A stretch of DNA of 64,000 nt from NCBI RefSeq assembly GCF_035825295.1, contig NZ_JAYMGI010000002.1, positions 7,516,001-7,580,000 of the forward strand, in the 5' to 3' direction. Shown one piece after another: positions 34,243 to 55,049 of this stretch (within the stretch, counting starts at the first letter, position 1; each line of letters opens with the position of its first letter). The DNA is from Actinacidiphila sp. DG2A-62 (GTDB lineage: Bacteria > Actinomycetota > Actinomycetes > Streptomycetales > Streptomycetaceae). Both the position numbers and the translations under genes were made by a program. The notes below the pieces were generated by a model that was not told the DNA's origin, ran no database searches, and saw nothing but the letters and a program-made list of their open reading frames with translations.

Positions 34243-34321
34243 GGTGAACTCCAGACTCCGGACGTTGTCTCACGGACGATCACGTGGACGGCGATGCTCC
34301 GCCGCGCGGGCGTGCCCACCG

Positions 34322-35533: not shown

Positions 35534-35651
35534 GTCGTCACTCCTGTCTCCGGGCCGGTCCCGCGGCCCGGTGGTGGCGTTGCTCGGACGAGTCATCGCC
35601 CGGATGTACGCAAAAGAGTCGGCGGTTGTTCAGTTGCGGCGCTGTGCGCGT

Positions 35652-35679
35652 GCCCGGTGCCGTGGGGACGGCACCGGGC
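35652..35679. terminator. terminator downstream of the MFS gene
   Basis: A perfect 11-bp inverted repeat, GCCCGGTGCCG and CGGCACCGGGC, with a 6-nt loop. It lies 60 bp beyond the MFS stop codon and upstream of the P450, so the two are probably separate transcripts. Confidence 0.75.
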
Positions 35680-35738
35680 GGACTAACGATCTTCGGACGA
35701 AGAGGGAACGCGCGCCGTGGCCGCGACCGCCGCCGCCC

Positions 35739-38509: not shown

Positions 38510-39448
38510 TCACAGGGCGCGGCGGCGGACCGCGGCGAGCGGCGCCGCCGACGCCAGCGCGACGGCGTGGCCCGCGGGGGCGGGCAGCGAGGTCAGGTAC
38601 GGGGACTCGGCCGGCCAGCCGGGGACGCCCGGGGCGGCGGCGCGGTGGCCGGAGACATCGATGCGCGGCGGCGGTGCGGCAAGGCCGAGGGCGGCCAGCT
38701 TCATCGCCGCCTCCTTGCGCACCCACGCGGCCAGGAACGCCGCGCGCCGCGCGTGCGCGGGGAGCTTGAGATAGGCGGCGTGCTCGGCGGGCGTCAGCGC
38801 CGCCGCCGCGAGCCCGTCCGCGTCCTGGCCCGGCGCCAGCGCGTCGATGTCCGCGCCGATCAGCCCGGCGCGGGAGGCGGCGGCGCGCGGGTGCGGGCGC
38901 GCGCGGGGGCCCGGGGCGGTGTCCGGGCTGCCGGCCGTGTCGCAGGCGGCGGCGTCCCGGCCGCGTGCGGCGCCCGGCGCGGGAGGGGCGTCCGCGCTGG
39001 GACGGGTCTGCGGCGTGCGGCCGGTGTCCGGCGCCGGAGGGGTCTTCGCGGTGGGACGGGTGTCCGGCGCCGGACCGGTGTTCGCGGCGACCACCGCCAT
39101 CAGCAGCCAGCGCGCGGTGTGCGAGACCGAGTAGTCCACGGGGGCGCCGGGGATGCGCGGGCGGCCGTGGCGCGGGTCGCCGCAGTGCGCGCAGGAGCGG
39201 TCCACGGCCAGCTCGCCGGGCGCGGCGTCCAGGTAGCGGGCGGCGACGAGGCGCTGCGCCCCGCGCGAGGTGAGGAAGACCGCCGCGGCCGGGCTCGCGC
39301 CCAGCGCCGCCAGCCGCTCGCGCTCGGCGTCGGAGAGCAGGCACTCCCACCGCGGCCGCGGCCGCACCTCCACCAGCCACACGTCGCACACGCCGGGACG
39401 CGGCGGCGCGATCCGGGAGGCGTGCGGCGCGGCCTGCGCCGCCGTCAC
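38510..39448 (-). CDS. 4'-phosphopantetheinyl transferase, Sfp type
   Basis: A 312-aa enzyme that converts apo carrier proteins to holo form. Core motifs are VDYSVSHTARWLLMAV, IGADIDAL (the Mg site usually GVDIE) and FLAAWVRKEAAMKLAALGL (the WxxKEA motif). A Pro/Thr/Ala-rich insert of about 65 residues splits the first two motifs. It is the last gene of the leftward operon, and its GTG overlaps the tricorn stop (GTGA). Likely clients are the two ACPs and the PKS in this window. Confidence 0.87.
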   Translation of the reverse strand: MTAAQAAPHASRIAPPRPGVCDVWLVEVRPRPRWECLLSDAERERLAALGASPAAAVFLTSRGAQRLVAARYLDAAPGELAVDRSCAHCGDPRHGRPRIPGAPVDYSVSHTARWLLMAVVAANTGPAPDTRPTAKTPPAPDTGRTPQTRPSADAPPAPGAARGRDAAACDTAGSPDTAPGPRARPHPRAAASRAGLIGADIDALAPGQDADGLAAAALTPAEHAAYLKLPAHARRAAFLAAWVRKEAAMKLAALGLAAPPPRIDVSGHRAAAPGVPGWPAESPYLTSLPAPAGHAVALASAAPLAAVRRRAL

Positions 39449-42400
39449 CGTGCCTCCCGGTGCGCCGCGCGCCGCGACCGGTCCGCGGGCGGTCGTGCGA
39501 CGGCGGGCGCTCCCGAACCGCCGAGCGCTCGGGGGTCGTCGGACGAGCCGGAGCCGGCCGTCGGCCCGTCCGTTCGTTCGGCGCGGGTCCGTTCGGCGCG
39601 GGTCCGTTCGGCGTCCGCCCGTTCCGCGCGCGCCGTCGCACGACCGCCGGTGTCCGCCGTCGCGCCCGCCAGCGCCCGCGTCGTCGCCCCGCCGGCCGCC
39701 ACCCCGTCCACTGTCGCCAGCAAGTGCCGTACGGCCGCGGCCAGTTGCGCGTCCTGGACCGGCGTCGGGCCCTGCGGCGGGACCTCCACCACGATGTCCG
39801 GGTCGACGCCGCGGTTCTCCAGCCCCGCGCCCACCCCCGAGAAGTAGTAGGCGAACTCCGGCTGCGTGGTGACCGTGCCGTCGACCAGCTCGTGCCGCGG
39901 CCAGGTGGCGATCGTGCCGCCCCAGGTGCGGGTGCCGATCAGCGGCCCGAGACCGCGCTCGCGGAACATGTGGCAGAAGATCTCGCCGTCCGACCCCGTC
40001 TGCTCGTTGACCAGCGCCACCATCGGGCCGCGCGGCGACTCCAGCGGGTACGGCACCTCGCCGCTCCACCGGCCGTGCTCCGCGCCGGCCCGCCGCCGCG
40101 ACAGCCGGTCGAGCAGCAGCGGCGAGGCGTGCCCGCCGCCGTTGAACCGCACGTCCACCACCAGGCCCTCCCGGTCCAGGCCGGTCAGGAACTGCCCGAC
40201 GAAGTCCGCGTACCCGGTCCTGAACATGTCCGGCACGTGCAGGTACGCCAGACGGCCGCCGGACGCCCGCGTGACGTAGGCCCGGTTGGCGGCCACCCAG
40301 TCCAGGTAGCGGGCCCGGTCCTCGCTGCGCGCGGCCCGGACCACCACCCGGCGCGGCGCCGCGCCCGGCCGCCGCACCGACAGCTCGACCTCGCGTCCGG
40401 CCAGCCCCACGAGCAGCTCGGCCGGGCCCAGCGGCCCGACCGCGCGGCCGTCGACCGCGGCGATCTCGTCGCCCGGCCGCACGTCCACGCCCGGCAGGTC
40501 CAGCGGGGAGGTGGCGTCCGGGTCCCAGGGCGCGCCGCGCAGCACCCGGCCCACCCGCCAGCGCCCGCCGGGACCCGCGGCGGCGTCCCAGTCCACGCCG
40601 AGGAAGCCGTGCTCGCGGCCGGCCGGCGGGCCGTAGTCCCCGCCGCGCTCGTACGCGTGCGAGGTGGCCAGTTCGCCGTGCATCTCCCAGAGCAGGTCGG
40701 ACAGTTCGGACCGGGTGGCGACCCGGTCCAGCAGCGGCCGGTAGCGGTCGTGCACGGCCTGCCAGTCCACGCCGGACATCGCCGCGTTCCAGAAGCTCTC
40801 CCGCTGCAGCCGCCACGCCTCGCGGAACATCTGCCGCCACTCGGTGGCGGGTTCGAACGGCACGGTGATCCGGTCCAGGTCCACCCAGCCGGTCTCCCGG
40901 CCCGGCGGCGCCACCGGGTGGTCGTAGTCCTCCACCGCCTCCCGCGGCAGACCCGCGGGCACCACGCGCAGCCGGTGGTCGTGCCGGTAGAGCAGCGTCG
41001 CGCCCGACGGGTCGGTGCCGATCTCGTCCACCGGCCGCAGATACTCCTCGGTGGCGTCGCCGGTCGCCAGGTCGACCAGGGTGACCTGGCCCTCGGGCTG
41101 CCGCTTCACGTCGGCCGGGTCGGGCGCGGACAGCGGCACGCCCAGCACCAGCACGGCCTCCGGCAGCCCGGCCACCGCCGCGTACCGGCCCTGCGGCACC
41201 GGCAGCGGCACGATCCGCCGCTCGACGCCCTCGAAGTCGATCTCCACCGCCGCGCCCTCGTCGGGCTCCGGCAGCGTCCGGCCGGCGAACGGCGGCGGCG
41301 CGTCGGCGGTCAGCAGCACCGCGTACGGCCGCGCGCCGAACGGGAAGCCGACGTCGAACTGCACCTGGTCGTGCTCCGGGATCAGGTCGCGCTGCCCGAT
41401 GAAGTACAGGTAGCGCCCCAGCGGGTCGAAGGCCGGCAGCGCGTCGCGCAGCACCGGCTCGGTGACCCGCCCGGTCCGGCCGGTCGCCGGCTCGCACACC
41501 TTGACCGCCGTGGTCCGCAGCGTGTCGGGATAGGTGTACGCGACCCAGCGGCCGTCCGGCGACCAGGCCAGGTCGTCGATCCGCTCGTACGGACTGCTGT
41601 CCAGCAGCCGCGGCGCGAGCACGGGCGCGTCGGTGTCCACCGCCCACAGCTGCTGGCGGTTGGTGGCGAACGCCACCTGTCCGCCGGCCGGCGCGGCGGC
41701 CAGCGCGGTCACGTACCCCAGCTCGTCCAGCCGCAGGTGCCCCAGCTCCGCGCCGCCCGCCGCCGGCAGCAGCACGAGACGCTCGCCCGGACCGTCGTCG
41801 CCGGCCACCGCCACCAGCCGGCGGCCGTCGGCGAGCCAGTGCAGCAGCCGGTAGCGCACCCCGTCGGCGGCGCCGTGCCGCCGCACCGGACCGGTCCACG
41901 GCGCGAGCGTGAACGCCTTGCCGCGGGCGCCGACCGCGAGCCTGCTGCCGTCCGGGCTGAGCCGGGCGCCGTCGAGGAAGCCCGAGGCGGAGACGATGCG
42001 GCGCTGCGCCTGCGCGCCCGAGGGAGTCAGCGCGACCGGCACCCGGCGCACCGAGCCGTCCGCGGGGTCCAGCACGTACAGTTGCGCGCCGCAGTGGTAG
42101 ACCAGCCGGCTGCCGTCGCCGGTCAGCCCGCGGGCGTAGTGCTCCCGGTGGTCGGTGTGCCGGGTCAGGCCGGAGCCGTCCGGGCGGCAGGAGTAGACGT
42201 TGCCGGTGCCCTCGTGGTCGCTGAGGAAGAAGATCCGCCCGGCCGCCCAGCACGGGGACGCCGGGTTGCCCGCGGGCACGTCGAGCCGCACGAAGTCGCC
42301 GGTGCCGGCCGCGTCGGCCCACAGCTCGCCGGCGGCGCCGCCGCGGTAGCGCTTGCGCCGGGCCGGGTCGGCGATGCTGCGGCCGATCACCGCGGCGCCG

Positions 42401-42867
42401 CCCGGGCCCAGCGCGAGCGAGGCGGCGGGCGCCGCCTCGACCAGTCGCGGCGGGCCGCCCTCCGGGCGCACCGCGAACAGCCGCGCGCCGAAGGACGGCG
42501 GCAGGCCGGCGGTGGAGGAGTAGACGATCTCGCCGGTCACCGGGTGCCAGCCGGTCACCTGGCAGGCGCCGGCCTGGCTGGTCACCCGGCGCACCGGGCC
42601 GCCGTCGACCGAGATCAGGCAGATCTCCGGCACGCCCTCTGGCGTGCCGGTGAACGCGATCAGCCGGCCGTCCGGCGACAGCCGCGGCCCGCTGCACACC
42701 GCCGTGCCCGAGGTCAGCCGGCGCGCGTCGCCGCCGCCGGCCGGGACCGCCCACAGGTCGTCCTCGCACACGAACACCACGAGGTCCCCGGCGATCGTCG
42801 GCTGGCGGAGATAGCCGCCCGCCGGGCCCGGCCCCGCGGCGGGCGCCGCGGCGCCGCTGCCGTTCAT
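39445..42867 (-). CDS. tricorn protease homologue
   Basis: An 1140-aa protein. The N-terminal beta-propeller repeats (GPRLSPDGRLIAFTGTPEG, LAWSPDGRWVAYTYPDT) are followed by a core with TSHAYERG (the Ser-His of the active site), a PDZ domain (GDEIAAVDGRAVG), and the C-terminal serine hydrolase with EQTGSDGEIFCHMF (nucleophile region) and ENRGVDPDIVVE. Tricorn trims oligopeptides to di- to tetrapeptides. It is translationally coupled to the GNAT gene upstream and the phosphopantetheinyl transferase downstream, an unusual place for a housekeeping peptidase, so a pathway-specific processing or resistance role is possible. Confidence 0.88.
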   Translation of the reverse strand: MNGSGAAAPAAGPGPAGGYLRQPTIAGDLVVFVCEDDLWAVPAGGGDARRLTSGTAVCSGPRLSPDGRLIAFTGTPEGVPEICLISVDGGPVRRVTSQAGACQVTGWHPVTGEIVYSSTAGLPPSFGARLFAVRPEGGPPRLVEAAPAASLALGPGGAAVIGRSIADPARRKRYRGGAAGELWADAAGTGDFVRLDVPAGNPASPCWAAGRIFFLSDHEGTGNVYSCRPDGSGLTRHTDHREHYARGLTGDGSRLVYHCGAQLYVLDPADGSVRRVPVALTPSGAQAQRRIVSASGFLDGARLSPDGSRLAVGARGKAFTLAPWTGPVRRHGAADGVRYRLLHWLADGRRLVAVAGDDGPGERLVLLPAAGGAELGHLRLDELGYVTALAAAPAGGQVAFATNRQQLWAVDTDAPVLAPRLLDSSPYERIDDLAWSPDGRWVAYTYPDTLRTTAVKVCEPATGRTGRVTEPVLRDALPAFDPLGRYLYFIGQRDLIPEHDQVQFDVGFPFGARPYAVLLTADAPPPFAGRTLPEPDEGAAVEIDFEGVERRIVPLPVPQGRYAAVAGLPEAVLVLGVPLSAPDPADVKRQPEGQVTLVDLATGDATEEYLRPVDEIGTDPSGATLLYRHDHRLRVVPAGLPREAVEDYDHPVAPPGRETGWVDLDRITVPFEPATEWRQMFREAWRLQRESFWNAAMSGVDWQAVHDRYRPLLDRVATRSELSDLLWEMHGELATSHAYERGGDYGPPAGREHGFLGVDWDAAAGPGGRWRVGRVLRGAPWDPDATSPLDLPGVDVRPGDEIAAVDGRAVGPLGPAELLVGLAGREVELSVRRPGAAPRRVVVRAARSEDRARYLDWVAANRAYVTRASGGRLAYLHVPDMFRTGYADFVGQFLTGLDREGLVVDVRFNGGGHASPLLLDRLSRRRAGAEHGRWSGEVPYPLESPRGPMVALVNEQTGSDGEIFCHMFRERGLGPLIGTRTWGGTIATWPRHELVDGTVTTQPEFAYYFSGVGAGLENRGVDPDIVVEVPPQGPTPVQDAQLAAAVRHLLATVDGVAAGGATTRALAGATADTGGRATARAERADAERTRAERTRAERTDGPTAGSGSSDDPRALGGSGAPAVARPPADRSRRAAHREAR

Positions 42868-43442
42868 GTCCGCGCCCCCGCCCTGATCCGCTCCGCGACC
42901 TCCCGGCGGCGGCGCGCGGCCTCCTCCTGGCGGCGGCGCACGTCCTCGTCGGTCTCGGTCCAGTAGCACGCGGTCCGCCACCGGCCCACGGTGTACGAGT
43001 CGTACCCGCAGCGCACCCGCCGCTTGTCGGTCAGCTCGCCGGCCGACACGAGCATGGTGTTGTGCTCCAGCACCTGGTTGACCACCACGCGCATGTTCAG
43101 CTCCTCGCGCACATACGCGTGCGCGGCCCCCACCGCCGCCGCCCCGAACGCGCCGCGGTAGCGCGGCAGCACGCCGAAGGACAGCTCGCAGGTCTGGCTG
43201 CGCCAGTCGATCGAGGTGATCCAGGCGAAGCCGACGGTGTCGCCGCCCGGGCCGCACAGCGTGAAGATCCGCTTCACGTCGTGCTCCTCGGCGATGGTAC
43301 GGCGCTGGCCGGTGGCCAGCGCGTCGTCGGAGCTGACCGCGGCGAAGTCCGTCAGGTTCGCCTGGAAACGGGACTCGCGCAGCAGCGCGGTGCGCACCGG
43401 GACGTCGTCCTCGGTGAAGTGACGGATCGTCACGAGCGGCAT
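42864..43442 (-). CDS. GNAT-family N-acyltransferase (GNAT 4 of the operon)
   Basis: A 192-aa GNAT. VGFAWITSIDWRSQTCELSFGVLPRYRGAFG contains the beta4 strand and the acyl-CoA pyrophosphate loop. The C-terminus is a charged helix rich in Arg and Glu. It is the last of four consecutive GNAT genes, and its stop overlaps the tricorn start (ATGA). Acyl donor and acceptor are unknown. Confidence 0.82.
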   Translation of the reverse strand: MPLVTIRHFTEDDVPVRTALLRESRFQANLTDFAAVSSDDALATGQRRTIAEEHDVKRIFTLCGPGGDTVGFAWITSIDWRSQTCELSFGVLPRYRGAFGAAAVGAAHAYVREELNMRVVVNQVLEHNTMLVSAGELTDKRRVRCGYDSYTVGRWRTACYWTETDEDVRRRQEEAARRRREVAERIRAGART

Positions 43443-43445: not shown

Positions 43446-43949
43446 TCAGCCCTCCCGGCCGTGGTCGTCGGTGTCCGGCCGGCGCACCAACGCGTGCACG
43501 TGGACGTCGACATGGCGCCCGGACCTGAACAGGTGCCCGGGCAGCACGCCGCGCGAGGTGAACCCGCACGCCTCCAGCGCCGGCAGCACCGGGGAGTCCG
43601 CGGGAGTCTCCGCGACGAACGAGAAGCAGCGGTGGTAGGTCCGCAGGAACTCCAGCAGCGCCAGCAGCGGTTCGGGGTCGGGCGAGGTGGTGGCGACGCG
43701 CGCCTGGCGCGGCTGCAGCGGGTTGGGCGCGTAGCCGAGCAGCGCGTCGCCGCGGCGCAGCACCCGGGCGTCCTGCGCGGCGAGGTGACGGGCCGTCAGC
43801 TCCGGGTTCTGCGTCACCGGGTCGGCGCCGAGGAACCCGCGGGCGGCGGCGCGCGGCGCCGCGTCCAGCGCCCGGGCGGCGCCGAGCGGGTCGAGCAACT
43901 CGACGTCCGCGGCGGCGGCTGGCGCGGCCTCGGGCAGGGTGTCAGTCAT
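43446..43949 (-). CDS. GNAT-like protein (GNAT 3), divergent
   Basis: A 167-aa protein with a GNAT-like C-terminal half (LLEFLRTYHRCFSFVAE ... ALEACGFTSRGVLPGHLF, as in the beta5/alpha4 region). The canonical R/Q-x-x-G-x-G/A loop is not evident, so acyl-CoA binding is uncertain. Its ATG lies 8 bp inside the upstream GNAT gene. Spacing to the next gene is 3 bp. Confidence 0.68.
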   Translation of the reverse strand: MTDTLPEAAPAAAADVELLDPLGAARALDAAPRAAARGFLGADPVTQNPELTARHLAAQDARVLRRGDALLGYAPNPLQPRQARVATTSPDPEPLLALLEFLRTYHRCFSFVAETPADSPVLPALEACGFTSRGVLPGHLFRSGRHVDVHVHALVRRPDTDDHGREG

Positions 43950-44547
43950 GGCGGAACACTCCCCAGATCTGGCGGTCGACCGGCCGCCCGTCGAGCCACA
44001 GGGCCTGCGGCACGTCCGCCTCCGGGGACAGGCCCGCGGAGCGCAGCAACTCCTCGGCGGCGGACGGGCGTTCGCCGCCACGGGGGTCGTGCGGGTGGGC
44101 GTCGTCGGCGCCGCGCGGGTGCGCGGCGGCCCTCCCGGGCGCGTCGTGGGCGTCGTGCGGGTGCGCGGCGCCGGGCGTGAACCAGCCGTACACGCGGCGC
44201 AGGTTGAGCGTGCGGTGCGCGTGGGCGAGCGCCGCCCGGAGCAGCGGGCCCGCGACCGCGGCGGCGCCGGGCCGCAGCCCGATCTCCAGCCGCGCCCTGC
44301 GGTGCACCCAGTCCAGCTCGCTGAACCGCACGAAGGCGGTCTCCGGCAGCACGAGCACCTCCTCGGCGAGGCCCCGGCCGGGCGAGGGCGGCGGCACCGA
44401 CGCGGGGTCGGCCAGCGCGGGCCGTCCCGGCACGGGCAGCCCGAGCAGCTCCCCGGGCAGCCAGTCGCCGCTGAGCAGCGGCAGGTCGACGGCGCGGTAG
44501 CCGCGCAGGCGCAGTGCGGCCGGAATCGTCACGGCGGGGGCGGTCAT
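43942..44547 (-). CDS. GNAT-like protein (GNAT 2)
   Basis: A 201-aa protein. FVRFSELDWVHRRARLEIGLRP followed by LLRAALAHAHRTLNLRRVYGWF matches the central GNAT beta4/alpha3 segment. A His/Asp/Ala-rich insert (HPHDAHDAP ... DDAHPHDP) interrupts the C-terminal part. Coupled on both sides by overlaps. Confidence 0.72.
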   Translation of the reverse strand: MTAPAVTIPAALRLRGYRAVDLPLLSGDWLPGELLGLPVPGRPALADPASVPPPSPGRGLAEEVLVLPETAFVRFSELDWVHRRARLEIGLRPGAAAVAGPLLRAALAHAHRTLNLRRVYGWFTPGAAHPHDAHDAPGRAAAHPRGADDAHPHDPRGGERPSAAEELLRSAGLSPEADVPQALWLDGRPVDRQIWGVFRHD

Positions 44548-45110
44548 GACGCGGGCTCCCAGATCCGTGAGAAGAAGACCTGCCCGCCGCGGCGCGCCTC
44601 GCGCACCACCAGACCGGGCAGCTCGCCCTCCTCGGTGAAGCCGGCCAGGCGCGCGGCGGCCAGGCCGCGCTCGTCGTACGACCCGACCACGACCGCGAGC
44701 CTGATCACCTCGCGCCGCCAGCGCAGCGCGCGGATCACCTCCGCGTAGGCGGCGGCCCACGCGGCCGGCGGCAGCGCTGCGGTCAGCCGCAGGTGCAGCA
44801 CCACGTGGCAGGCGTGCGCCGCGCCGTTCTCCTCGACCGCGTACAGGCCTGGCTCGCCGTCCAGGGTGAGCAGCCGGGTGTCCTCGTCGAGCAGCGCGAG
44901 CAGCTCCCACTCGGGTCGGGTGTCCGGCCACGGCGTGCGGAAGTGGAAGTCGGGCTCGGTGAAGAACGCCAGCACGGCGTCGTGGTCCGCGGCGCCGACC
45001 GCGCGGGCGGCCCAGCCGGAGCCGGCCGGGGCGCCGCGGTCGGCCGGCGGCGCCGCGCCGGGCGCTCGGCCCGGCGGCGCGGGCGGCGCCGGGAGTGTCG
45101 AGGCGGTCAT
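44544..45110 (-). CDS. GNAT-like protein (GNAT 1)
   Basis: A 188-aa protein. After a Pro/Ala-rich 35-residue leader come FFTEPDFHFRTPWPDTRPEW, GLYAVEENG, a beta4-like HVVLHLRLT and LAAARLAGFTEEGELPGLV (the C-terminal GNAT strand). The ATG overlaps the acyl-CoA dehydrogenase stop. It is the first of the four GNATs downstream of the ACP and dehydrogenases, which suggests use of the acyl chain they make. Confidence 0.72.
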   Translation of the reverse strand: MTASTLPAPPAPPGRAPGAAPPADRGAPAGSGWAARAVGAADHDAVLAFFTEPDFHFRTPWPDTRPEWELLALLDEDTRLLTLDGEPGLYAVEENGAAHACHVVLHLRLTAALPPAAWAAAYAEVIRALRWRREVIRLAVVVGSYDERGLAAARLAGFTEEGELPGLVVREARRGGQVFFSRIWEPAS

Positions 45111-46270
45111 GTCCGCACCTTCCGTGAAGCGTTGCTCGGGGTGGTCCGCGCCGCGACGTCGCCGGTGATGTGCAGGCGCTGGATGTTGCTGGTGCCGTCC
45201 ATGAACTCGAAGGCGCGCACGTCCCGGCTCCACTTCTCCAGCAGGGGGTGCTCCAGCAGCGCGCCCGGGCCCAGCGCCCGCGCCGCCCAGTGGGTGGTGC
45301 GCACCGCCAGGTCGGTGGCGTGCAGCTTGGCCGCGGCCGGCGGGCGGCGCGCGTCCGGGTCCAGGTCGATCGCCGCCGCCGCGTCGTACAGCAGCTCGCA
45401 GGCCGCCGCCAGCCGCGCCGACGCCACCTCCTGGCCCGGTGCGTCCGGTCGCAGCAGCGCGACCTCGTCCCGTACGGCCAGGGCGGTGCCCAGCGCCAGG
45501 GCCGCGATCTGCAGCCGCATCGCGTTGAACGTGCGGCCGATGCCCCACAGTCCGCGCCGCGAGGCCGGCAGGTGCGCGCCCAGCATCATCCCCGGCGGCA
45601 CCTCCACGCCCTCCAGGTCCAGGTGGCAGATGCGGGCGCCGCGCAGGCCGATCATGTCCAGCGGCTCGGCGGCGAAGCCGGGCGCGGGCAGCGGGACCAG
45701 GGCGCCGCGGATGGACAGCGGGGTGCGGCCGGTGCGGCCGAAGACCACGCCGATCGAGGCCCGCGAGGCGTTGCCGACGTAGCGCTTGGCGCCGGTCAGC
45801 AGATGGCCGTCGGCCGGGTCGGGATACGGGTCGAGGCACGTCTCCATCGCGGTGGCGTCGCTGCCGTGCTCCGGCTCGGTCATCCCGAAGAAGGTCCAGG
45901 CGCGGCCGTCGGCGATGGCGTCGTAGAACAGCTCGCGCTGGGCCTGGCTGCCGAGGGTGTCGACGGCCACGCCGGCCAGCGACGGCCCGGTGTTGGAGCA
46001 CACCACGCCGGCGTCGCCGCGGGCGAACTCCACGGTGGCCACCACGCGCGACCGGCAGTCGTCCGCGGAGCCGCCGACGTCCGGCATCGAGGCGTCGCGG
46101 AACTCCTTGGGCGTGGCCGCGGCGCGCATCAACGCCAGGACATCGGTGTCCAGTTGGGGCTGCGGACCACCGGGGTCGGCGTCGACGGCCAGCGCGTGGC
46201 CGCGCAGGGACCGGGCCGCCTCGCGGCAGGTGTCGCGCAACTCCCGCAGGGGCGCTTCCAGTTCGGTCAT
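45107..46270 (-). CDS. acyl-CoA/acyl-ACP dehydrogenase
   Basis: A 387-aa flavin-dependent acyl-CoA dehydrogenase. FFGMTEPEHGSDATAME and a YVGNASRASIGVV block form the middle beta domain. The C-terminal helical domain ends with FEFMDGTSNIQRLHITGD. At the usual catalytic Glu of YEGT the sequence has Asp (FMDGT), a conservative change worth noting. It probably introduces an alpha-beta double bond into an acyl group, perhaps on the adjacent ACP. The ATG overlaps the upstream stop. Confidence 0.85.
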   Translation of the reverse strand: MTELEAPLRELRDTCREAARSLRGHALAVDADPGGPQPQLDTDVLALMRAAATPKEFRDASMPDVGGSADDCRSRVVATVEFARGDAGVVCSNTGPSLAGVAVDTLGSQAQRELFYDAIADGRAWTFFGMTEPEHGSDATAMETCLDPYPDPADGHLLTGAKRYVGNASRASIGVVFGRTGRTPLSIRGALVPLPAPGFAAEPLDMIGLRGARICHLDLEGVEVPPGMMLGAHLPASRRGLWGIGRTFNAMRLQIAALALGTALAVRDEVALLRPDAPGQEVASARLAAACELLYDAAAAIDLDPDARRPPAAAKLHATDLAVRTTHWAARALGPGALLEHPLLEKWSRDVRAFEFMDGTSNIQRLHITGDVAARTTPSNASRKVRT

Positions 46271-47106
46271 GACGTCCGCACCTCCTCGTTCGCCGGGCTC
46301 GCGACGGCCCGCAGGGCCGCCGGCCGCGGACGCTCACGCCCGGACCCGGACCGGTCCCGCGGCGACGGCTTCGGCGCGTGACGCGCCGCGGGCATGCCGT
46401 CGGCGGGCAGCCAGGTCTGCGCGACCAGCCAGCCGACGTAACCGGGCCGCGCCGCGCCGTCGGCGACGAAGCCGGACGCGCCGAGCAGCTTGGCGGCCTC
46501 CCAGTCCAGCGCGGTGATCCGGTCGTGCGCGTCGGCCACCGCGGCCGGCACGTCCCCGGCCACGCGCAGCAGCCGCAGCACGGCCTCCAGGCCGGTGTGC
46601 ACGTCGGCCACCGTCCCGCGCACCATCTGCTTGCGGCTGATCGGCTCGCCCTCGGCGACACGGCCGGACAGATGCGCCACCGCGTCGTCGAGCAGCCGGC
46701 GGGCCAGGCCCGCGCGCACCGCCCCGAGCAGGGCGGCCAGCCGGTGCGCGCCGGCGTCGGCGCCGTCCGGTCCGTCCGCGTGGTCCGCGGCGTCCGGGGC
46801 GTATGCGTCGTTCGGGGCGTATCCGCCGTGTGCGCTGTCCGCGTCGTACGTGTTCTCGGGGGCGTTCGTGTCGTCGGGGGCGTCCGTGCCGTCCGGCGTC
46901 AGCGGCCACCGCACGAAGCTCACGCCCTCGCGCTCGGCCAGCCGGTGCGGCACGACGCGGGCCGCGGCCGGCACCGAGGACGTCGGCAGCGCGGCGACCG
47001 GGCCGGGCGGCGCCGGGACGCCGGCCTCGGCCAGCGCCAGGGCGAGCCCCGACGCCAGACCGCCGGCGTGGGCGGCGGCCTCGCAGGCCGCGATCATGTC
47101 GCTCAT
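46267..47106 (-). CDS. acyl-CoA-dehydrogenase-like protein, short
   Basis: A 279-aa protein whose second half resembles the C-terminal helical domain of acyl-CoA dehydrogenases (LDDAVAHLSGRVAEG, then ISRKQMVRGTVADVHTG). The N-terminal alpha domain and the TEP...GSD flavin motif of the middle domain are not visible, and an Asp/Ala-rich insert (PDDTNAPENTYDADS) occupies the centre. It may be a non-catalytic partner forming a heteromer with the next gene, as seen for paired dehydrogenases. Coupled by ATGA. Confidence 0.65.
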   Translation of the reverse strand: MSDMIAACEAAAHAGGLASGLALALAEAGVPAPPGPVAALPTSSVPAAARVVPHRLAEREGVSFVRWPLTPDGTDAPDDTNAPENTYDADSAHGGYAPNDAYAPDAADHADGPDGADAGAHRLAALLGAVRAGLARRLLDDAVAHLSGRVAEGEPISRKQMVRGTVADVHTGLEAVLRLLRVAGDVPAAVADAHDRITALDWEAAKLLGASGFVADGAARPGYVGWLVAQTWLPADGMPAARHAPKPSPRDRSGSGRERPRPAALRAVASPANEEVRTS

Positions 47107-47131: not shown

Positions 47132-47398
47132 CTATCCCGCGGCGCGGGAGAGTTCCAGACGCGCCCCGATGTAGTCGGCGAATGCGCCGGCGGACCGGAA
47201 CACCTCGGGTTCGAGGGATTCCGGGTCCACGTCGAGGCCGATGGTGTCCTCCAGGCTCATCAGGAGTTCGATGAACCGCATGGAGTCGATGTCCAGGTCC
47301 TCCAGGATCCTGGTCTCCGCGCCGAATTCGGGAAGCGGCCGGTCGAGGATCACGGAGAGGGAATTGCGCAGGTGCTCGATGATCTCGGCGCGTTCCAC
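47132..47398 (-). CDS. acyl carrier protein (ACP 1)
   Basis: An 88-aa ACP. LEDLDIDSMRFIELLMSLED carries the phosphopantetheine serine (S39 from the GTG start). The fold matches stand-alone ACPs of biosynthetic loci. GTG 47398 has AAAGGA upstream. It lies between the repeat-peptide gene and the acyl-CoA dehydrogenases, so it likely carries their substrate. Confidence 0.88.
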   Translation of the reverse strand: MERAEIIEHLRNSLSVILDRPLPEFGAETRILEDLDIDSMRFIELLMSLEDTIGLDVDPESLEPEVFRSAGAFADYIGARLELSRAAG

Positions 47399-47582
47399 CG
47401 GTCCGTCCTTTCCGGTTGGTCTCGGGTCGGTCTCCGATTCGTTTTCCGGCCGACAGTCGCCGCGGGCCGCGGGGAATTCCCCGCGTGCCGCCGCGCCTGT
47501 CGTCGGAAATGGTGCCCGTTCGGTTTCCCCTGTCCCGGGGGAGTCCTTGAGAGGTGCTGCTCCGTGGTTCCGCGGTGCGGGC

Positions 47583-47650
47583 GCCGGCCGCCCGGTGAGG
47601 GGCGGCCGGCACCGGATCAGCCGCCGGCCCGGCGGAGACCGCCGGCCGGC
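47583..47650 (-). terminator. tandem GC hairpins (attenuator-like) after the repeat-peptide gene
   Basis: Two adjacent stems. GCCGGCCGCC / GGCGGCCGGC (47583-47592 and 47601-47610) is a perfect 10-bp stem. A second stem at 47623-47635 / 47639-47650 has one bulge. They lie 20-90 bp downstream of the repeat-peptide stop and 185 bp before the ACP start, as expected for partial termination that makes the peptide mRNA more abundant than the enzyme mRNA. Function inferred. Confidence 0.65.
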
Positions 47651-47670
47651 GACGGGTGGTGCGGGCCGTG

Positions 47671-47844
47671 TCAGGCGGCCTTGACCGCGGCCTTGACGGC
47701 CGCCTTGGACGCCGCCTTGCTGGCGGCCTTGGACGCGGCCTTCACCGCGGCCTTGCTGGCCGCCTTGCTCGCGGCCTTCGACGCGGCCTTGGAAGCGGCC
47801 TTGCTCGCGGCCTTCACAGCGGCCTTCGAAGCAGCCTTCGACAT
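47671..47844 (-). CDS. 57-aa peptide made only of fourteen [S/V]-K-A-A repeats
   Basis: After the initiator Met the protein is exactly fourteen uninterrupted tetrapeptides, ten SKAA and four VKAA, giving 14 Lys and no acidic residue. Lys every fourth residue would draw a slowly spiralling positive stripe on a helix. Repeats differ at synonymous sites (Ser as TCG, TCC and AGC; Ala as GCC, GCG, GCT), so the protein rather than the DNA repeat appears conserved. The start is ATG 47844 with GGAAGG ten bases upstream. ATG 47862 would add six residues. It leads the operon of ACP, dehydrogenases, GNATs, tricorn and PPTase. Possible roles: acylation scaffold or multi-core precursor, antimicrobial peptide, or nucleic-acid-binding peptide. 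It matches no family I know. Confidence 0.8.
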   Translation of the reverse strand: MSKAASKAAVKAASKAASKAASKAASKAASKAAVKAASKAASKAASKAAVKAAVKAA

Positions 47845-48123
47845 ATGAATCACACCTTCCATGATTACCTGGGACAGGAATTCGACTCCCCGAAGAGGAG
47901 CCGATCGCGCCGGTTCCGATGTCGTCCGGCTCCATGAGATTCGCCGATTCCGTCAGGCACCGTCAACCCTTCTCCGTGACCCCTCCACGTCGGCGCGGTG
48001 GCAGCAAGTTGCCGTCATCCAGTGGCCATCGCGGAATGCTGCCGCTTTTCCCCGCGGGCCCGATCCTGGAAGGGCCGGGAAAGGCCCGGGGGCCTGTGAC
48101 GGCCGGGAAAGAGGAGGCGGACG
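47845..48123. other. divergent promoter region of the two biosynthetic operons
   Basis: 279 bp between the repeat-peptide gene (leftward) and the condensation gene (rightward). It is less GC-rich than its surroundings near 47845-48000. AAAGAGGAGG at 48108-48117 is the ribosome site for the rightward gene. No clear SARP heptamer array was found here. Confidence 0.55.
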
Positions 48124-49987
48124 ATGGACCAGCCGGGCGGGTACGCGAGGGCCGGCGCACGCGAGAGCGCCGGCGCCGGCACGGGGGATACCGGCGGGCC
48201 CGGGGAGCGGCGGTGCGCAGCGCCGAGCTGTGCTGGGGGCAGCGCTACCACTGGCTGCGCTACCAGTCCGTGCCGCCGGCCGCCCGGCACGACGCGCACA
48301 TCGTCGTCAACTGCGCCCTCCCCGAGGGCCTTTCACTGCCCGCGCTGCGTTCCGCGCTGGACTACCTGGTGCGCCGCCACGAGGGCCTGCGCACGGTGGT
48401 GGACCCGGCCGGCCGGTCCGGGCCGCGCCAGGTCGTGCAACCGCCCCGGCCGCTGCCGCTGCACACCGCGACCACCGAGGCGGACGGCACTCCCGCGCCC
48501 GCCGAGGTGATCGCGGGGCTGAGCCGGACGCCCTTCGACCTGGAGCGCGACTGGCCGATACGGGTCTGCGCGGTGACCACCGCGGGCGCGCCACGCCGAC
48601 TCGCCGTGGTGCTCCACCACATGACCTTCGACGACTGGGGACTCGCGCTGTTCCAGCGGGAGTTCGGCGCGCTCCTGGACGCGCTCGGCAGCCGCCGCAG
48701 GGCGCAGCTGCCGCCGGTCGCGCAGCAGCCCGCGGACCTCGCCGCCGCCGAGACCGCCATGGCCCCGCCCGACCGCGCGGCGGCCCTGCGGCACTGGGAG
48801 CAGACCATCCCACTGCTGCCCACCGACCCGTTCGCCCGCCGGCGCCGCGCGCCCCGCCCGGACCCGGGCAGGCCGGCCCGGAGCCGCAGGCCGCCGCCCG
48901 CGGCCCGGTGGCGCACACCGCGACCCTCACCTCGCCCGGGATGCTCGCGGCCGTACGCGACATCGCCGCGCGGCTGAAGGTGTGGCCGTCCGCGGTGCAC
49001 CTCGCGGCCTACGCGACCGGCATGGCGGCCTACACCGGCGAGGCGGTGGTCGCGCACCGGTGGCTGGCCAGCCACCGCGAGGGCTCCCGGATGGACGTCC
49101 TGTCGTGCATGTTCTCGCCCGCTCTGGTCCGCGTCGATCTGTCGGGCGACCCGGGGTTCGGGGAGGTCGCCGCGCGGGTCGCGCGGGCGCTGCGGACCGC
49201 GCAGCGGCACGCCTACGCGCCCTGGGACGAGGTGGCCGAGCTGGTCGCCGCGGAAGGGCACCGGCGCGGCCGGCTGCTGCGGGTCACCTCCGAGGCCAAC
49301 TTCCTGACCAGCCCGGCGCAGCACTGCGGCAGCCGCAGGGACCGCCTGGTGCGCGGCGCCGAGCCGTACGACTGGGCGCTGTCCGCCACCGACACCTACC
49401 TGCGGGTGCGCGAGCTGGCGGACGGCGTGAGCGTCGGGCTCAACGCGCTGGACGAGGTGATGGACGCCTACGCGGTCGAGGCTTTCCTGCACGGGTACGC
49501 CCGGGTGATCGCCGCCCACGCCGACCCGGCCGTCGACCTGCGATTCTCCGACGCGGCGGCGCTGTTCGGCTTCCCCCCACCGGGCGGCCCGGCCGCGAGT
49601 GGCCCGGCCGTGAGTGACCTGGCCGCGATCGACACGGCCGCGATCGACCCGCACGTCGCGCGGGCGGCGGCCCGCGACGACCGCGGCGGCCCCGCGCGGG
49701 CGGCGCTCCTGCGGGCCGTCGCCGAGGCCAACGCACTGGATGCGGTGGAGCCCGGACTGCCGTACGTGCCCGCGGGCGGTCGGCTGCTGCGCGCGCCGTA
49801 CGCGCTCGCGCTGCTGCGGGACCTCGGCTGGGCCGGCGTCGCACTGCCCGACCTGGCCGGCGTCCGCCCGCTCGCCGAGCTGGCCGACGCGCTGGTTCCC
49901 GCCGAGCCGGCGCAGGACCCCGCGCGGCACGGCTCCGCCGCTGCCGACGCCGGCCCCGCGCCGGTACGCGTCACCCAACCGGCCTGA
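48124..49987 (+). CDS. stand-alone condensation-domain protein, two frameshifts
   Basis: NRPS-type condensation domain. Visible are SAELCWGQRYHWLRYQ, the active-site HHMTFDDWG (HHxxxD), LASHREGSRMDVLSCM and DWALSATDTYLRVRE. The strong ribosome site AAAGAGGAGG points to ATG 48124. The frame then changes near 48205-48212 and near 48845-48900, and each change is repaired by one added base. The C-terminal 120 residues include PYALALLRDLGWAGVALPDL and VRPLAELADALV, which resemble a carrier-domain tail lacking the serine. It may join an acyl group to an amine. About 621 aa when corrected. Confidence 0.72.
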
Positions 49988-50336: not shown

Positions 50337-51443
50337 TCAGGCGACGACGGACTCCGCGGACAGGCGCTGCGCGAGCTGGACGCCGGCCTGGAAGCGGCTG
50401 ACCGAGTCCAGGCTGCGCATCAGCGCGGCGATGTGCCGGCGGCAGGTCCGCACCGACATGCCGAGCCGGCGCGCCACCGCCTCGTCCGTCAGCCCCTGCG
50501 ACATCAACTGGGCGATGGAGCGCTGGAAGTCGTCCGCGATGTCCTCCGCGTAGCCCGTGTCGTCCGGGACGAAGGGCGACGCGGACTCCCACAGCACCTC
50601 GAACATGTCGATCAGGCAGCGCACCATCGCCGGGTCGGTCACCGGGCGCGCGGTTGGCGGCCGGACCCCGTCGCCGGGGTCGACCACGACGGCCAGCGCC
50701 CGGTCGAAGACCACCGCGGCCTGGGGCACCGCGCGGACGGTGCGCAGTTCGGCGCCGCCCTCGACCAGCCGGGTGGCCCGGGTGCGGGAGGCGAAGTCGG
50801 CGCGGTCGCGGTGCGGCGCCAGGACCCGTACGCCGATCGCGCCGTCCAGCGCGCCGCAGCAGCCGTCGAACAGCGCGCTCACCGGGGTCGCGCCCTCGGC
50901 CGCGGGCACGTCGCCGCCCGGCCTGAGCACCGCGGCCTCGGTGTGGCACTCCGCGGCGGCCAGCCGCAGCAGGCCGCGCACCTCCGCCTCGCCCTCGACC
51001 TGGTCGATCACCCCGAGCGGCCCCGGAGCGGCCCCGGCCGGGCCGGCGATGGAGTCTATCCGCGCCCGCAGCCGGTCGGCGACCTCCCGCTGCTGCAGGA
51101 TCGCCCGCTCGATCGGCGAGATCAGCAGCGTCGCCGCGGCCCGCGGGTCCAGCGGCACCAGGGTGCCGTCGCCCTCGTCGCCGGTGCGCAGCATGTGCAG
51201 CTCCACCAGGCGCGCGGCGGCGGCGAAGACCTCGCCCGGGGACAGGCCCAGCTCCGCGGCGACCCCGTCGAGAGCGGAGGGGGAGAGCGCGCCGCGGCGG
51301 GTCGCGTACTGGTAGACGACGACCAACGCGTCGCTGTCCGGCGGCCGTTCCGGCAGCCCGGCCCGCTGCACCGCGCCGTCCGGGCGCACCACGCCGAGCC
51401 GGGCCGCGGCCGGCGGCGCGGCGTCCGTTGTCCCCGTGATCAT
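50337..51443 (-). CDS. LuxR-type transcriptional regulator
   Basis: A 368-aa protein. The N-terminus looks like a winged-helix module (ALSPSALDGVAAELGLSPGE), the centre is a phospholipase-D-like or sensor region (VRVLAPHRDRADF), and the C-terminal LuxR helix-turn-helix is LMSQGLTDEAVARRLGMSV plus RTCRRHIAALMRSL. This layout matches orphan streptomycete LuxR regulators of biosynthetic clusters. ATG 51443 was chosen for the CAGGAGG ribosome site 8-14 bases upstream. The SARP-like heptamer array lies 125 bp upstream, so it may itself be under SARP control. Confidence 0.8.
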   Translation of the reverse strand: MITGTTDAAPPAAARLGVVRPDGAVQRAGLPERPPDSDALVVVYQYATRRGALSPSALDGVAAELGLSPGEVFAAAARLVELHMLRTGDEGDGTLVPLDPRAAATLLISPIERAILQQREVADRLRARIDSIAGPAGAAPGPLGVIDQVEGEAEVRGLLRLAAAECHTEAAVLRPGGDVPAAEGATPVSALFDGCCGALDGAIGVRVLAPHRDRADFASRTRATRLVEGGAELRTVRAVPQAAVVFDRALAVVVDPGDGVRPPTARPVTDPAMVRCLIDMFEVLWESASPFVPDDTGYAEDIADDFQRSIAQLMSQGLTDEAVARRLGMSVRTCRRHIAALMRSLDSVSRFQAGVQLAQRLSAESVVA

Positions 51444-51872: not shown

Positions 51873-52160
51873 ATGGCTGACACGGAGATTCCGCGTTCCT
51901 TCCAGGAGGTGCTGCTGCCGCATCTTCCGTACGCCGAGGCGAGCGAGCTCTCGGCGGCGGACGATCTGGCGGCGCTCGGCCTGGACTCCATGGGCGTGGT
52001 CCAGCTGCTCGCCGAGCTGGAGGACGCGTTCGGCGTCGAGCTGCCGGACGAGGCGCTGACCGAGGAGACCTTCGAGACCGTCGGCTCGCTGTGGTCCGCG
52101 GTCGACGCGCACACGGCGGCCGGCGCGTCCGCCGCGCCGGAACCGGCCGGCCATGAGTGA
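51873..52160 (+). CDS. acyl carrier protein (ACP 2)
   Basis: A 95-aa ACP with the phosphopantetheine serine S39 in LAALGLDSMGVVQLLAELED. It starts the rightward ACP/acyl-ligase/decarboxylase operon, and its stop lies 8 bp inside the ligase gene. In comparable cassettes the ligase loads an amino acid onto this ACP and the decarboxylase acts on the tethered substrate. Confidence 0.88.
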   Translation: MADTEIPRSFQEVLLPHLPYAEASELSAADDLAALGLDSMGVVQLLAELEDAFGVELPDEALTEETFETVGSLWSAVDAHTAAGASAAPEPAGHE

Positions 52161-53751
52161 CCGGATGACGGCCGCCGCCCCGGCCGGCGCCCCGCTGACC
52201 CGCCTCGACCGGCTGGTCGGACAGGGCGCGCCGGGCCGCCCGGCACTGACGTTCAAGGAGCGCACCGTCAGCTACGGCGAACTCGCCGAGCAGGTCGCCT
52301 CCGTCGCCTACGGCCTGTACCGGCTGGGCGTGCGGCGCGGCGACCGGGTCGCGGTCTACGCCGAGAAGCGCGTCGAGACGGTCGTGGCGATGCTGGCCAC
52401 CGCCGCGGCGGGCGCCGTGTTCGTGCCCGTCAACCAGCTCTTCAAGGGCCGCCACCTGGCCCGGGTGACCGAGGACTGCGCGGCGGTCGCCCTGGTCACC
52501 ACCGCGGAGCGGCTGGACACCGTACGGTCCGCGCTGGCCCCCGACACCTCGGTGCGCCACCTGGTGGTGATCGGCGACAGCGGCGAGGCCCCGCCGGTCG
52601 ACGACCGCTGGCAGGTCACCGCGTGGGAACGGCTGGGCGAGAAGGGCCCGGTGCCGGTGCCCGGCGCGCACGCGGTGATCGACGCCGACGTGGCCGCCAT
52701 CTTCTACACCTCGGGCAGCACCGGCGGCCCCAAGGGCGTGGTGCTCTCGCACCGCAACCTGCTGGCCGGCGCCGACAGCGTGGCCACCTACCTCGGCCAC
52801 ACCGGCGACGACGTGCTGCTGGCCGCGCTCCCGCTGAGCTTCGACGCCGGCTTCAGCCAGCTGACCACCGCGCTGATCCGCGGCGCGCACGTCGTGCTCA
52901 CCAACTACCTGCTGCCGCGCGAGGTGGTACGGCTGTGCGCCCGGCACGGGGTGACCGGCCTGACCTGCGTGCCGCCGCTGTGGATGCAGCTGGCCGCGCT
53001 CGAATGGCCGCTGGAGGCCACCGGGCGGCTGCGCTACTTCGCCAACACCGGCGGCCGTATGCCGCGCGCGACCCTGGCCCGGCTGCGCGAACTGCTGCCA
53101 CAGGCACGGCCGTTCCTGATGTACGGGCTCACCGAGGCGTTCCGCGCCACCTATCTCGACCCGGCCGAGGCGGACCGGCGGCCGGACTCCATCGGCAAGG
53201 CGATCCCCAACGCCGAGGTGCTGGTGGTGCGCCCCGACGGCACTCCCTGCGTGCCCGGCGAGCACGGCGAACTGGTGCAGCGCGGGGCGCTGGTGGCGCT
53301 CGGCTACTGGAACAACCCCGAGGCGACGGCGCTGCGCTTCCGCCCGGCGCCCGGAGGTGTGCCGTCGGGCCTGGCCGAGCGCGCGGTGTGGTCGGGCGAC
53401 ACCGTCTACCGCGACGAGGAGGGCTTCTTGTACTTCGTCGGCCGCGCCGACGACATGATCAAGTCCTCCGGCTACCGGATCAGCCCCACCGAGGTCGAGG
53501 AGGCCGCGTACGCCACCGGGCTGGTCACCGAAGCGGTGGCGCTGGGCGCGGCCGACGAGCAACTCGGCCAGCACGTCCTGCTGGTGGTGGCCGGCCCCTG
53601 CGACACCGGACGGCTGCACCAGGCGATGGCCCGCGAGGTCCCCGCCTATATGCTGCCGCGCCGCACGGTCGTGCTGCCCGGCCTGCCCCGGTCGGTGAAC
53701 GGCAAGTTCGACCGGGTGGAGCTGCGCCGGATGGTGGAGGCGGAGCAGTGA
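52153..53751 (+). CDS. AMP-forming acyl/aminoacyl ligase
   Basis: A 532-aa ANL-superfamily enzyme. The P-loop is YTSGSTGGPKGVVLSH, the A5-like motif is LMYGLTEAFRATYL, and the C-terminal hinge and lysine are GRADDMIKSSGYRISPTEVE and SVNGKFDR. Its closest recognisable relatives are acyl ligases that pair with an ACP and a PLP decarboxylase (exosortase-A-associated loci, or VinN-type starter activation in macrolactams). Coupled by overlap on both sides. Confidence 0.85.
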   Translation: MSDRMTAAAPAGAPLTRLDRLVGQGAPGRPALTFKERTVSYGELAEQVASVAYGLYRLGVRRGDRVAVYAEKRVETVVAMLATAAAGAVFVPVNQLFKGRHLARVTEDCAAVALVTTAERLDTVRSALAPDTSVRHLVVIGDSGEAPPVDDRWQVTAWERLGEKGPVPVPGAHAVIDADVAAIFYTSGSTGGPKGVVLSHRNLLAGADSVATYLGHTGDDVLLAALPLSFDAGFSQLTTALIRGAHVVLTNYLLPREVVRLCARHGVTGLTCVPPLWMQLAALEWPLEATGRLRYFANTGGRMPRATLARLRELLPQARPFLMYGLTEAFRATYLDPAEADRRPDSIGKAIPNAEVLVVRPDGTPCVPGEHGELVQRGALVALGYWNNPEATALRFRPAPGGVPSGLAERAVWSGDTVYRDEEGFLYFVGRADDMIKSSGYRISPTEVEEAAYATGLVTEAVALGAADEQLGQHVLLVVAGPCDTGRLHQAMAREVPAYMLPRRTVVLPGLPRSVNGKFDRVELRRMVEAEQ

Positions 53752-55049
53752 CCGCGACGCACGCGCCGGCCCCGGCGCTCCCGGACCTCCCCGCGGCGCC
53801 GGCCGCCGAACCGCGCACCGGGCCCGCGCTGTTCGGGCGCGTCGACGGCGAACTGGCCGTCGGCGGGGTGCCGGCCGGGCTGCTGGTCGAACGCTCCGGC
53901 GGCACACCGCTGTTCGCCTACGACCGCGCTCTGGTCGCCGAGCGGATCGCCGCGGTGCGTGCCGCGCTGCCCGACGCCGTCGCGCTGAGCTACGCGGTCA
54001 AGGCCAACCCGATGCCCGCGCTGCTGCACCACATGAGCACGCTGGTCGACGGCTTCGACGTCGCGTCGTCCGGCGAGATGCTCGCCGCCCTCGACACCGG
54101 CCTCGGCGCGGCGCACACCGCCTTCGCCGGCCCCGGCAAGACCGCCGCGGAGCTGCGGCAGGCCGTCGCCGCCGGCGTCCTGGTCGAACTGGAGTCGGCC
54201 ACCGAACTGGCCAGGCTGCGTGCGGCCGGAGACGAACTCGGCGTCCGCCCGCGAGCGGCACTGCGCGTCAACCCGCCCTTCGCGGTGCGCGGTTCGGGCA
54301 TGCGGATGGGCGGCGGCCCGCAGCAGTTCGGCGTGGACGCCGAGCAGGCGCCCGCGCTGCTGGCCGAACTCGCACGCGGCGATGTGGCGTTCGAGGGCTT
54401 CCATGTCTTCGCCGGCTCGCAGAACCTGGACGCCGAGAGCATCTGCGCCGCCCAGCGGGCCACCGTCGACCTGATCGCCGACCTCGCCGGGCACGCCCCC
54501 GTCCGCTACCTCAACCTCGGCGGCGGCTTCGGCATCCCGTACGGCCCCAAGGACCGGCCGCTGGACCTGCGGCCGATCGGCGAGAACCTGGCGAAGCTGC
54601 TGGACACCACGGTCCGCGACCGGCTCCCGCAGGCGCGGCCGGTGATCGAACTGGGCCGGTACCTGGTCGGCGAGGCCGGGGTGTACCTGACCCGGGTGGT
54701 GGACCGCAAGCAGTCCCGCGGCACCACCTACCTGGTCGTCGACGGCGGCCTGCACCACCAACTGGCCGCCACCGGCAACCTGGGCCGGGCGCTGCGCCGC
54801 AACTACCCCATCTGCGTGGCTCGTTCGGCACCCGCGCAGACGCCGGCGAGCGACGCGGCCGACGCGACCGAGGTCGTGGACGTCGTCGGCTGCCTGTGCA
54901 CGCCGCTGGACCTGCTCGGCAAGGACGTCACGCTGCCCAGGGCCGAACCCGGCGACCTGGTCGCGGTGTTCCAGGCCGGCGCCTACGGGCTGACCGCCAG
55001 TCCCACGGCGTTCCTCGGCCACCCCGCACCCCGCGAAGTCCTGGTCTGA
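53748..55049 (+). CDS. PLP-dependent decarboxylase, ACP-cassette type (VinO-like)
   Basis: A 433-aa fold-type III decarboxylase. SYAVKANPMP has the PLP lysine, and AFAGPGKTAAEL, FHVFAGSQNL, LNLGGGFGIPYG, ELGRYLVGEAG and VVGCLCTPLDLLG are family blocks. The GTG overlaps the ligase stop. The pairing with a ligase and ACP suggests decarboxylation of a carrier-bound amino acid to give an amine starter (as VinO does). The substrate is unknown. It is a distant paralogue of the siderophore decarboxylase at the left edge. Confidence 0.85.
   Translation: MTATHAPAPALPDLPAAPAAEPRTGPALFGRVDGELAVGGVPAGLLVERSGGTPLFAYDRALVAERIAAVRAALPDAVALSYAVKANPMPALLHHMSTLVDGFDVASSGEMLAALDTGLGAAHTAFAGPGKTAAELRQAVAAGVLVELESATELARLRAAGDELGVRPRAALRVNPPFAVRGSGMRMGGGPQQFGVDAEQAPALLAELARGDVAFEGFHVFAGSQNLDAESICAAQRATVDLIADLAGHAPVRYLNLGGGFGIPYGPKDRPLDLRPIGENLAKLLDTTVRDRLPQARPVIELGRYLVGEAGVYLTRVVDRKQSRGTTYLVVDGGLHHQLAATGNLGRALRRNYPICVARSAPAQTPASDAADATEVVDVVGCLCTPLDLLGKDVTLPRAEPGDLVAVFQAGAYGLTASPTAFLGHPAPREVLV

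Follow-up and report, generated by a model that had tools for sequence, protein, structure and literature searches.

In a stretch of 64,000 nucleotides from Actinacidiphila sp. DG2A-62 (in the following called the window) a short gene encodes a leaderless peptide in which a lysine recurs at every fourth residue. With 12 homologous peptides in equivalent clusters, it belongs to a gene family that is conserved and apparently undescribed. Together with four GNAT-like proteins and a tricorn protease the peptide forms one co-inherited module, which is joined to an aminoacyl-ACP machinery that exists also without this module. Probably the peptide serves as ribosomal backbone for the construction of an unusual small molecule, which is later cut free.

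The peptide gene and its repeat array

The peptide ORF comprises 174 bp and runs on the minus strand from the ATG at position 47844 to the TGA ending at 47671. A first sequence-only reading had described these coordinates and a translation of 57 aa made of methionine and 14 units of [S/V]KAA; both are correct, with the addition that the gene lies on the minus strand (47844->47671). The product MSKAASKAAVKAA...VKAAVKAA contains 14 lysines and no acidic residue. A Shine-Dalgarno sequence, GGAAGG, can be read 10 nt 5' of the ATG (47855-47860, minus strand) and a purine-rich ribosome binding site also precedes the peptide gene in the homologues examined. The alternative in-frame ATG at 47862, adding MEGVIH, was rejected as start codon because it overlaps the Shine-Dalgarno sequence, is replaced by ACG in the homologue from A. 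alni, and because the homologues begin with M-[SA]-K. Directly 3' of the stop codon folding revealed two strong GC hairpins (47580-47653, minus strand), which resemble a terminator or attenuator without a T run. This region folds at -74.5 kcal/mol (z -3.4) and lies in the gap of 272 bp between the peptide gene and the following ACP1 gene; strong hairpins were also found 3' of the peptide gene in 6/6 homologues folded (z -1.7 to -5.0). Hairpins after a precursor gene often allow an excess of the precursor over its enzymes.

The serine codons of the 57-aa peptide alternate between TCN and AGC, and the differences between its repeat units amount to 56, 56 and 126 at codon positions 1, 2 and 3, corresponding to a pN/pS of 0.37. 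It is therefore the protein that is kept rather than the DNA, in agreement with what the serine codons had suggested at first reading, and a DNA-level repeat without coding function is ruled out by this codon-position pattern. A pN/pS below 1 was obtained for 12/12 arrays tested, and in the array from Streptomyces sp. YIM 98790 (L061) the units differ 82 times at the third codon position and never at the first or second.

Across the family of 13 peptides the length varies from 29 to 97 aa, with 7-24 lysines and a charge of +7 to +22. The unit occurs in variants such as SKAA, TKAA, SKVA and GKVS or, with a period of five, ATKAV/ATKVI, and a lysine is present in every repeat. Its register is unbroken at period 4 in ten peptides and at period 5 in three, two of the latter showing a single 4-residue step close to the start. 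The three period-5 peptides (L060, L061 and L062) fall together in a single supported branch of the GNAT4 tree and represent a natural experiment on the requirements of the modifying enzymes. The residues other than lysine are 98% A/S/V/T/I/G, and the C-terminus always reads K-x-A or K-x-x-A, with alanine as last residue in all 13 peptides. As the unit length and the side chains drift and the lysine stays constant, selection keeps each lysine and not the exact unit; lysine is the invariant element of the peptide family. The earlier idea of a defined modified tetrapeptide as product had to be abandoned, since the unit has four or five residues and its other positions drift freely. That the peptide is leaderless was borne out in 13/13 cases, in which no leader or other non-repeat segment was found and the repeat sets in within the first few residues and extends to the C-terminus; a globular part is likewise missing in all 13. 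The lysine vector on a helix is only 0.07-0.27, the lysines thus not being clustered on one face, and on the basis of this near-zero vector and the period changes an amphipathic helix was rejected. A short divergent variant, MVKSSGKVSGKKQGKVSGKKQGKVSGKKQGKVA (L063:6372-6473), retains the period-4 register and shows an extra lysine every eight residues.

Distribution of the module

A search of the genus with ACAD homologues led to 12 clusters. Five of them, G000, G003 (Actinacidiphila alni), G012, G017 (Streptomyces sp. CBMA29) and G023, possess GNAT1-4 and the peptide, and the seven clusters without GNATs (L048-L054) have neither peptide nor tricorn. The latter result rests on stretches of 20 kb and on genome-wide GNAT4 and K-pattern searches, in which the seven genomes gave no GNAT4 and no ten-unit period-4 lysine array. 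Genes for an ACP, a PLP decarboxylase, an ACAD, an ATP-grasp protein and a KS III are common to these clusters and some of the peptide clusters. In detail, the seven clusters encode an ACP, a BtrK-like decarboxylase, a pre-ATP-grasp ligase, a KS III, a split ACAD and an unannotated protein of ~290 aa, and three of the seven also carry genes that, named from their sequence, resemble SbnA/SbnB and a carbamoyltransferase. Judged by these genes, the set may provide an uncharacterised aminoacyl-ACP building block common to several pathways.

Relatives of GNAT4 led to seven additional loci, from Streptantibioticus parmotrematis, Streptomyces sp. ICBB 8177, an actinomycete MAG, S. sp. NBRC 109706, S. 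sp. YIM 98790, S. aidingensis and S. sp. TBY4, and a lysine-array peptide is encoded at the equivalent place in 7/7. In S. sp. XM83C the contig with GNAT4 (L064) is cut upstream, from which we predicted that the peptide should be encoded elsewhere in this genome. It was found on the contig carrying GNAT1-3, which encodes MTKAATKAASKAA... / MTKAATKAASKAASKAAAKAA...; no tricorn was seen on the two contigs read, over which the operon is split. All 13 clusters with the GNAT set, which share ancestry and are non-independent observations, therefore encode a short leaderless lysine-periodic peptide and none of them lacks it. It is located upstream of the ACAD and GNAT genes in 12/12 contiguous clusters, and tricorn accompanies peptide and GNATs wherever the locus is contiguous. 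Both the proposal of a conserved gene heading the operon and the proposed co-occurrence with GNATs and, in contiguous loci, tricorn are thus supported.

GNAT4 was detected in 7/395 Streptomycetaceae genomes, all seven encoding the peptide at the operon, and in 5/35 genomes genus-wide, again with the peptide in 5/5. The strict DNA pattern of five [x]KAA units occurs in four of the 395 Streptomycetaceae genomes and in all four at this operon, a distribution that goes beyond chance. In a class-wide sample of 395 genomes only the genome analyzed here encodes GNAT4, and the system is thus rare. Generic arrays with a lysine at every fourth position were found in 40/346 genomes of the family and 16/346 of the class, mostly as linkers (of KPEP type in the family) or basic tails. 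We therefore rejected this periodicity alone as a unique feature and base our reasoning on the occurrence as a stand-alone ORF and on its genetic coupling. Eight small-residue K-arrays outside the operon were opened and all eight lie inside larger open frames, and no stand-alone peptide was found outside the operon. We are nearly certain that the peptide ORF is a real gene that is functionally tied to the GNATs.

The enzymes encoded next to the peptide

On the minus strand the peptide gene is followed by genes for ACP1, a partial ACAD-like protein, an ACAD, GNAT1-4, tricorn and a 4'-phosphopantetheinyl transferase. ACP1 (47132-47398) is a stand-alone acyl carrier protein with a DSM motif (Pfam PP-binding, 1.4e-8). 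Of the two ACAD-like proteins that had been proposed, one (45107-46270) is indeed a flavin acyl-CoA dehydrogenase-like protein, whose NCBIfam matches include prolyl-carrier-protein dehydrogenase, and the other (46267-47106) corresponds to the C-terminal domain only (Pfam Acyl-CoA_dh_1, 5.5e-7). The four proteins proposed as GNATs are all GNAT-like by profile or fold, even if GNAT1-3 have no GNAT match in Pfam or NCBIfam. AlphaFold (AF2) models of GNAT1 (44544-45110; pLDDT 72, fold assigned by Foldseek) and GNAT3 (43446-43949; pLDDT 86.5) show the GNAT fold. GNAT2 (43942-44547) is SpeG-like, its profile matching spermidine N-acetyltransferase in the PDB with 3.6e-9, and GNAT3 shows a weak match to SpeG (2e-3). 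GNAT4 (42864-43442) is the best conserved of the four (Pfam Acetyltransf_3, 1.1e-6) and has a diamine N-acetyltransferase as best PDB match (4e-3). The best solved relatives of GNAT2-4 are thus spermidine and diamine acetyltransferases, weakly so for GNAT3 and GNAT4, which points to primary amines as acceptors. By eye the CoA pyrophosphate loop is not obvious in GNAT1-3, and these may be inactive partners.

The tricorn protease (39445-42867, minus strand) is the third paralogue in the genome, which has two further copies. It aligns with 1k32 over its length (2.6e-131) and contains the Tricorn C1, PDZ and S41 domains. The catalytic motifs S745/H746, S965/D966 and E1023 are conserved in all cluster copies examined, and the C-terminal anchor R131/R132 is not, making the cleavage mode uncertain. 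The tricorn gene is followed by that of the 4'-phosphopantetheinyl transferase (38510-39448; Pfam ACPS, 8.8e-11). Beside the operon, genes for a luciferase-like monooxygenase, a P450 and an MFS protein (33199-37160) probably belong to a separate cluster, as in A. alni they were not observed together with the GNAT module.

Divergently from the peptide gene a stand-alone NRPS condensation-like protein is encoded (48215-49987, plus strand; Pfam Condensation 1.7e-4, below cut-off), a homologue of which adjoins the peptide gene in most clusters. A non-ribosomal product, to which the peptide would be a mere accessory, could instead be formed via this condensation-like protein, joined by a KS pair in two clusters. 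A LuxR/HTH regulator (50337-51443, minus strand) was identified by family scan, and the plus strand continues with ACP2 (51873-52160; Pfam PP-binding, 9.7e-12), an AMP-forming ligase (52165-53751; TIGR03098 above cut-off) and a PLP decarboxylase (53748-55049; TIGR03099 above cut-off). The best solved relative of the decarboxylase is the L-Glu-[ACP] decarboxylase BtrK with 3.5e-72, compared to 6.4e-45 for the best diaminopimelate decarboxylase, placing it by sequence closer to the BtrK-type aminoacyl-ACP decarboxylases than to the diaminopimelate decarboxylases. These genes and the ACPs substantiate the suggestion that an ACP-borne aminoacyl machinery is encoded beside the peptide. In the gene of a SARP-family regulator (55262-57601, plus strand; family scan) the reading frame changes at 57150-57390 when compared with the A. 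alni homologue, frame 2 being used to residue 599 and frame 1 from residue 606; this is either a genuine frameshift or an error in sequencing. An ABC transporter ATPase (58309-59565, family scan) and a permease (59686-60441, assigned from sequence and position) follow on the plus strand, and their homologues are adjacent in G003 and G017. In the clusters of G023 and G012 a MATE exporter gene is present, suggesting a small final product. The operon of the G023, G012 and XM83C clusters also encodes a protein of ~270-300 aa (L046:63-956, L064:48-848), with 273-297 aa in the G023-type clusters, for which we dropped a 'BtrH-like' identity because the scanned L046 copy has no match in Pfam or NCBIfam.

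Proposed biosynthesis and alternative explanations

The module brings together acceptor amines on the lysines, transferases related to enzymes with primary-amine substrates, and a protease, and the simplest reading of this combination is acylation of the backbone followed by processing. From the enzyme families and the genetic coupling we infer the pairing of substrates and enzymes, the identity of the acyl group, the sequence of reactions and their product as follows. In this cluster the AMP-forming ligase would load an amino acid onto a stand-alone ACP, and the ACP-bound amino acid would be decarboxylated by the BtrK-like enzyme, a type of reaction described for VinN/VinL/VinO in vicenistatin biosynthesis (PMC11284099). 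The split ACAD pair might then desaturate the decarboxylated aminoacyl group, which the SpeG-like GNAT set would transfer to many lysine epsilon-amines; acylation of a lysine in a ribosomal peptide by a GNAT has precedent in NpuN (PMC13060382). The new primary amine on the acyl group may in turn serve as acceptor for further GNATs. The dedicated tricorn would cleave the backbone, once decorated, to short fragments that contain lysine and are exported by the ABC or MATE transporter, and the hairpins 3' of the peptide gene would yield the precursor in excess of the enzymes. That the lysines are the acylation sites we consider likely. For the full mechanism, a leaderless peptide backbone with multi-site lysine acylation by ACP-fed GNATs and trimming by tricorn, we see the chances as evenly balanced.

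The peptide might instead be a reusable carrier or scaffold, whose lysines tether the intermediates so that only the acyl group is released and tricorn turns over the spent scaffold. Conservation of the lysine and small spacers alone, with a drifting unit, is what one would expect if the backbone residues are not part of the product, and carrier-peptide logic is established (PMC9303977). An amidase or a dedicated acyl-lysine hydrolase, however, was not recognised in the operon, and a dedicated tricorn with intact active site suggests that cutting of the backbone belongs to the pathway, which makes a scaffold rather unlikely. It is less probable still that the intact, multiply acylated peptide is the product, for example a cationic or lipidated antimicrobial or a surface polymer, with tricorn serving self-protection. 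The high charge of +7 to +22 and the existence of GNAT-lipidated RiPPs (PMC13060382) would fit such a product, but there is no single helical face of lysines (vector 0.07-0.27), the length varies from 29 to 97 aa, the MATE exporters in two clusters fit small molecules and the presence of the decarboxylase points to a short amino acid rather than a lipid chain.

Very improbable in our opinion is a histone-H1-like peptide that binds nucleic acids or has a regulatory function and tunes the cluster, its charge being adjusted by the GNATs. Two homologues give weak Hc2/H1-like matches (22 vs 40 bits, below the curated cut-off) and Lys-rich tails are frequent in actinobacteria. The peptide from the window, however, gives no Hc2 match, it is strictly coupled to four GNATs and, where the locus is contiguous, to tricorn, the period changes from 4 to 5, all eight small-residue K-arrays opened outside the operon lie within larger open frames, and regulators (LuxR and SARP) are already present in the cluster. 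The antimicrobial and the nucleic-acid-binding alternatives considered in the sequence-only reading are both weakened by these results. A spurious ORF in a GC-rich repeat can practically be dismissed, as simple repeats in high-GC DNA do yield long ORFs in several frames but this one is found at 13 loci, has a ribosome binding site in those examined, is under purifying selection between its units and survives the period change.

Relation to known systems

Backbone acylation followed by processing shares elements with several described pathways. In the selidamides and nostolysamides, which are GNAT-acylated lanthipeptides, a GNAT acylates the side chain of Lys or Orn in a ribosomal peptide (PMC13060382). 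As in the selidamides, where a GNAT-family maturase is encoded with the precursor, four GNAT-like proteins are encoded in the operon described here, but the selidamide-type precursor is a lanthipeptide with leader and core, whereas all 13 peptides of our family are leaderless. Nostolysamide carries one lysine that is acylated from a long-chain acyl-CoA, in contrast to 7-24 lysines, a supply by ACP, decarboxylase and ACAD, and a tricorn in the system described here. A lanthionine synthetase, present in the characterised examples (PMC13060382), was not found among the cluster genes scanned. Multi-core RiPPs such as microviridin AMdnA, cyanobactins and ustiloxins have tandem repeats in one precursor and shared processing enzymes (PMC5934393). 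Tandem near-identical units are also a feature of the array peptide, but multi-core RiPPs keep a leader or signal as well as fixed core and cleavage motifs, and here neither a leader nor, apart from the lysine, a fixed unit exists.

In the pearlins (TglA, AmmA, TmoA) a ribosomal carrier peptide acts as scaffold through an amide linkage, and a dedicated protease belongs to the system (PMC9303977). Their C-terminus is loaded from aminoacyl-tRNA via a PEARL, whereas the presumed sites here are internal lysines, and no PEARL (LanB-like peptide aminoacyl-tRNA ligase) was found among the cluster genes scanned. Pearlin carriers and amino-group carrier proteins both tether through a terminus, unlike the scaffold considered above, which would use lysines. 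The amino-group carriers (LysW/AmCP) also possess a globular domain and a C-terminal Glu for attachment, whereas the peptides here are non-globular and end in Ala. A stand-alone ACP, a ligase and a BtrK-like PLP decarboxylase, as found here, also lead to aminoacyl-ACP in the biosynthesis of butirosin (BtrI/J/K) and vicenistatin (VinL/N/O) (PMC11284099). In those pathways an aminoglycoside or a polyketide receives the acyl group, whereas the candidate acceptor linked to the genes described here is a ribosomal lysine array. The system thus blends elements of selidamides, multi-core RiPPs, pearlins and amino-group carriers and is a member of none of these four, because in every case one or more of the defining features tested (leader, lanthionine synthetase, PEARL or globular carrier) is missing here. 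In the open-access literature we found nothing relevant on this operon, on tricorn in RiPP clusters or on Lys-repeat precursors, and set against this literature we regard the system as a class of its own among the RiPPs in the broad sense. With more reserve, falling somewhat short of an even chance, we propose as the chemistry of a new ribosomal product class that a leaderless lysine homo-array is elaborated by ACP-fed GNATs, possibly with iterative amide chains on each lysine, and then processed by tricorn, the backbone replacing the assembly-line carrier and the repeat being the sole recognition sequence.

Conclusion

Since they are leaderless, of low complexity and short, such peptides would be hard to catch for annotation or RiPP miners, and a lysine-array micro-ORF next to SpeG-like GNATs and tricorn can serve as a rule for gene mining. 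If the proposed biosynthesis is true, carrier-protein chemistry and ribosomal peptide synthesis would be linked in a novel manner and a RiPP-like substrate would be recognised without a leader. Tricorn, which is not mentioned in a review of RiPP leader proteases, would then gain a biosynthetic role.
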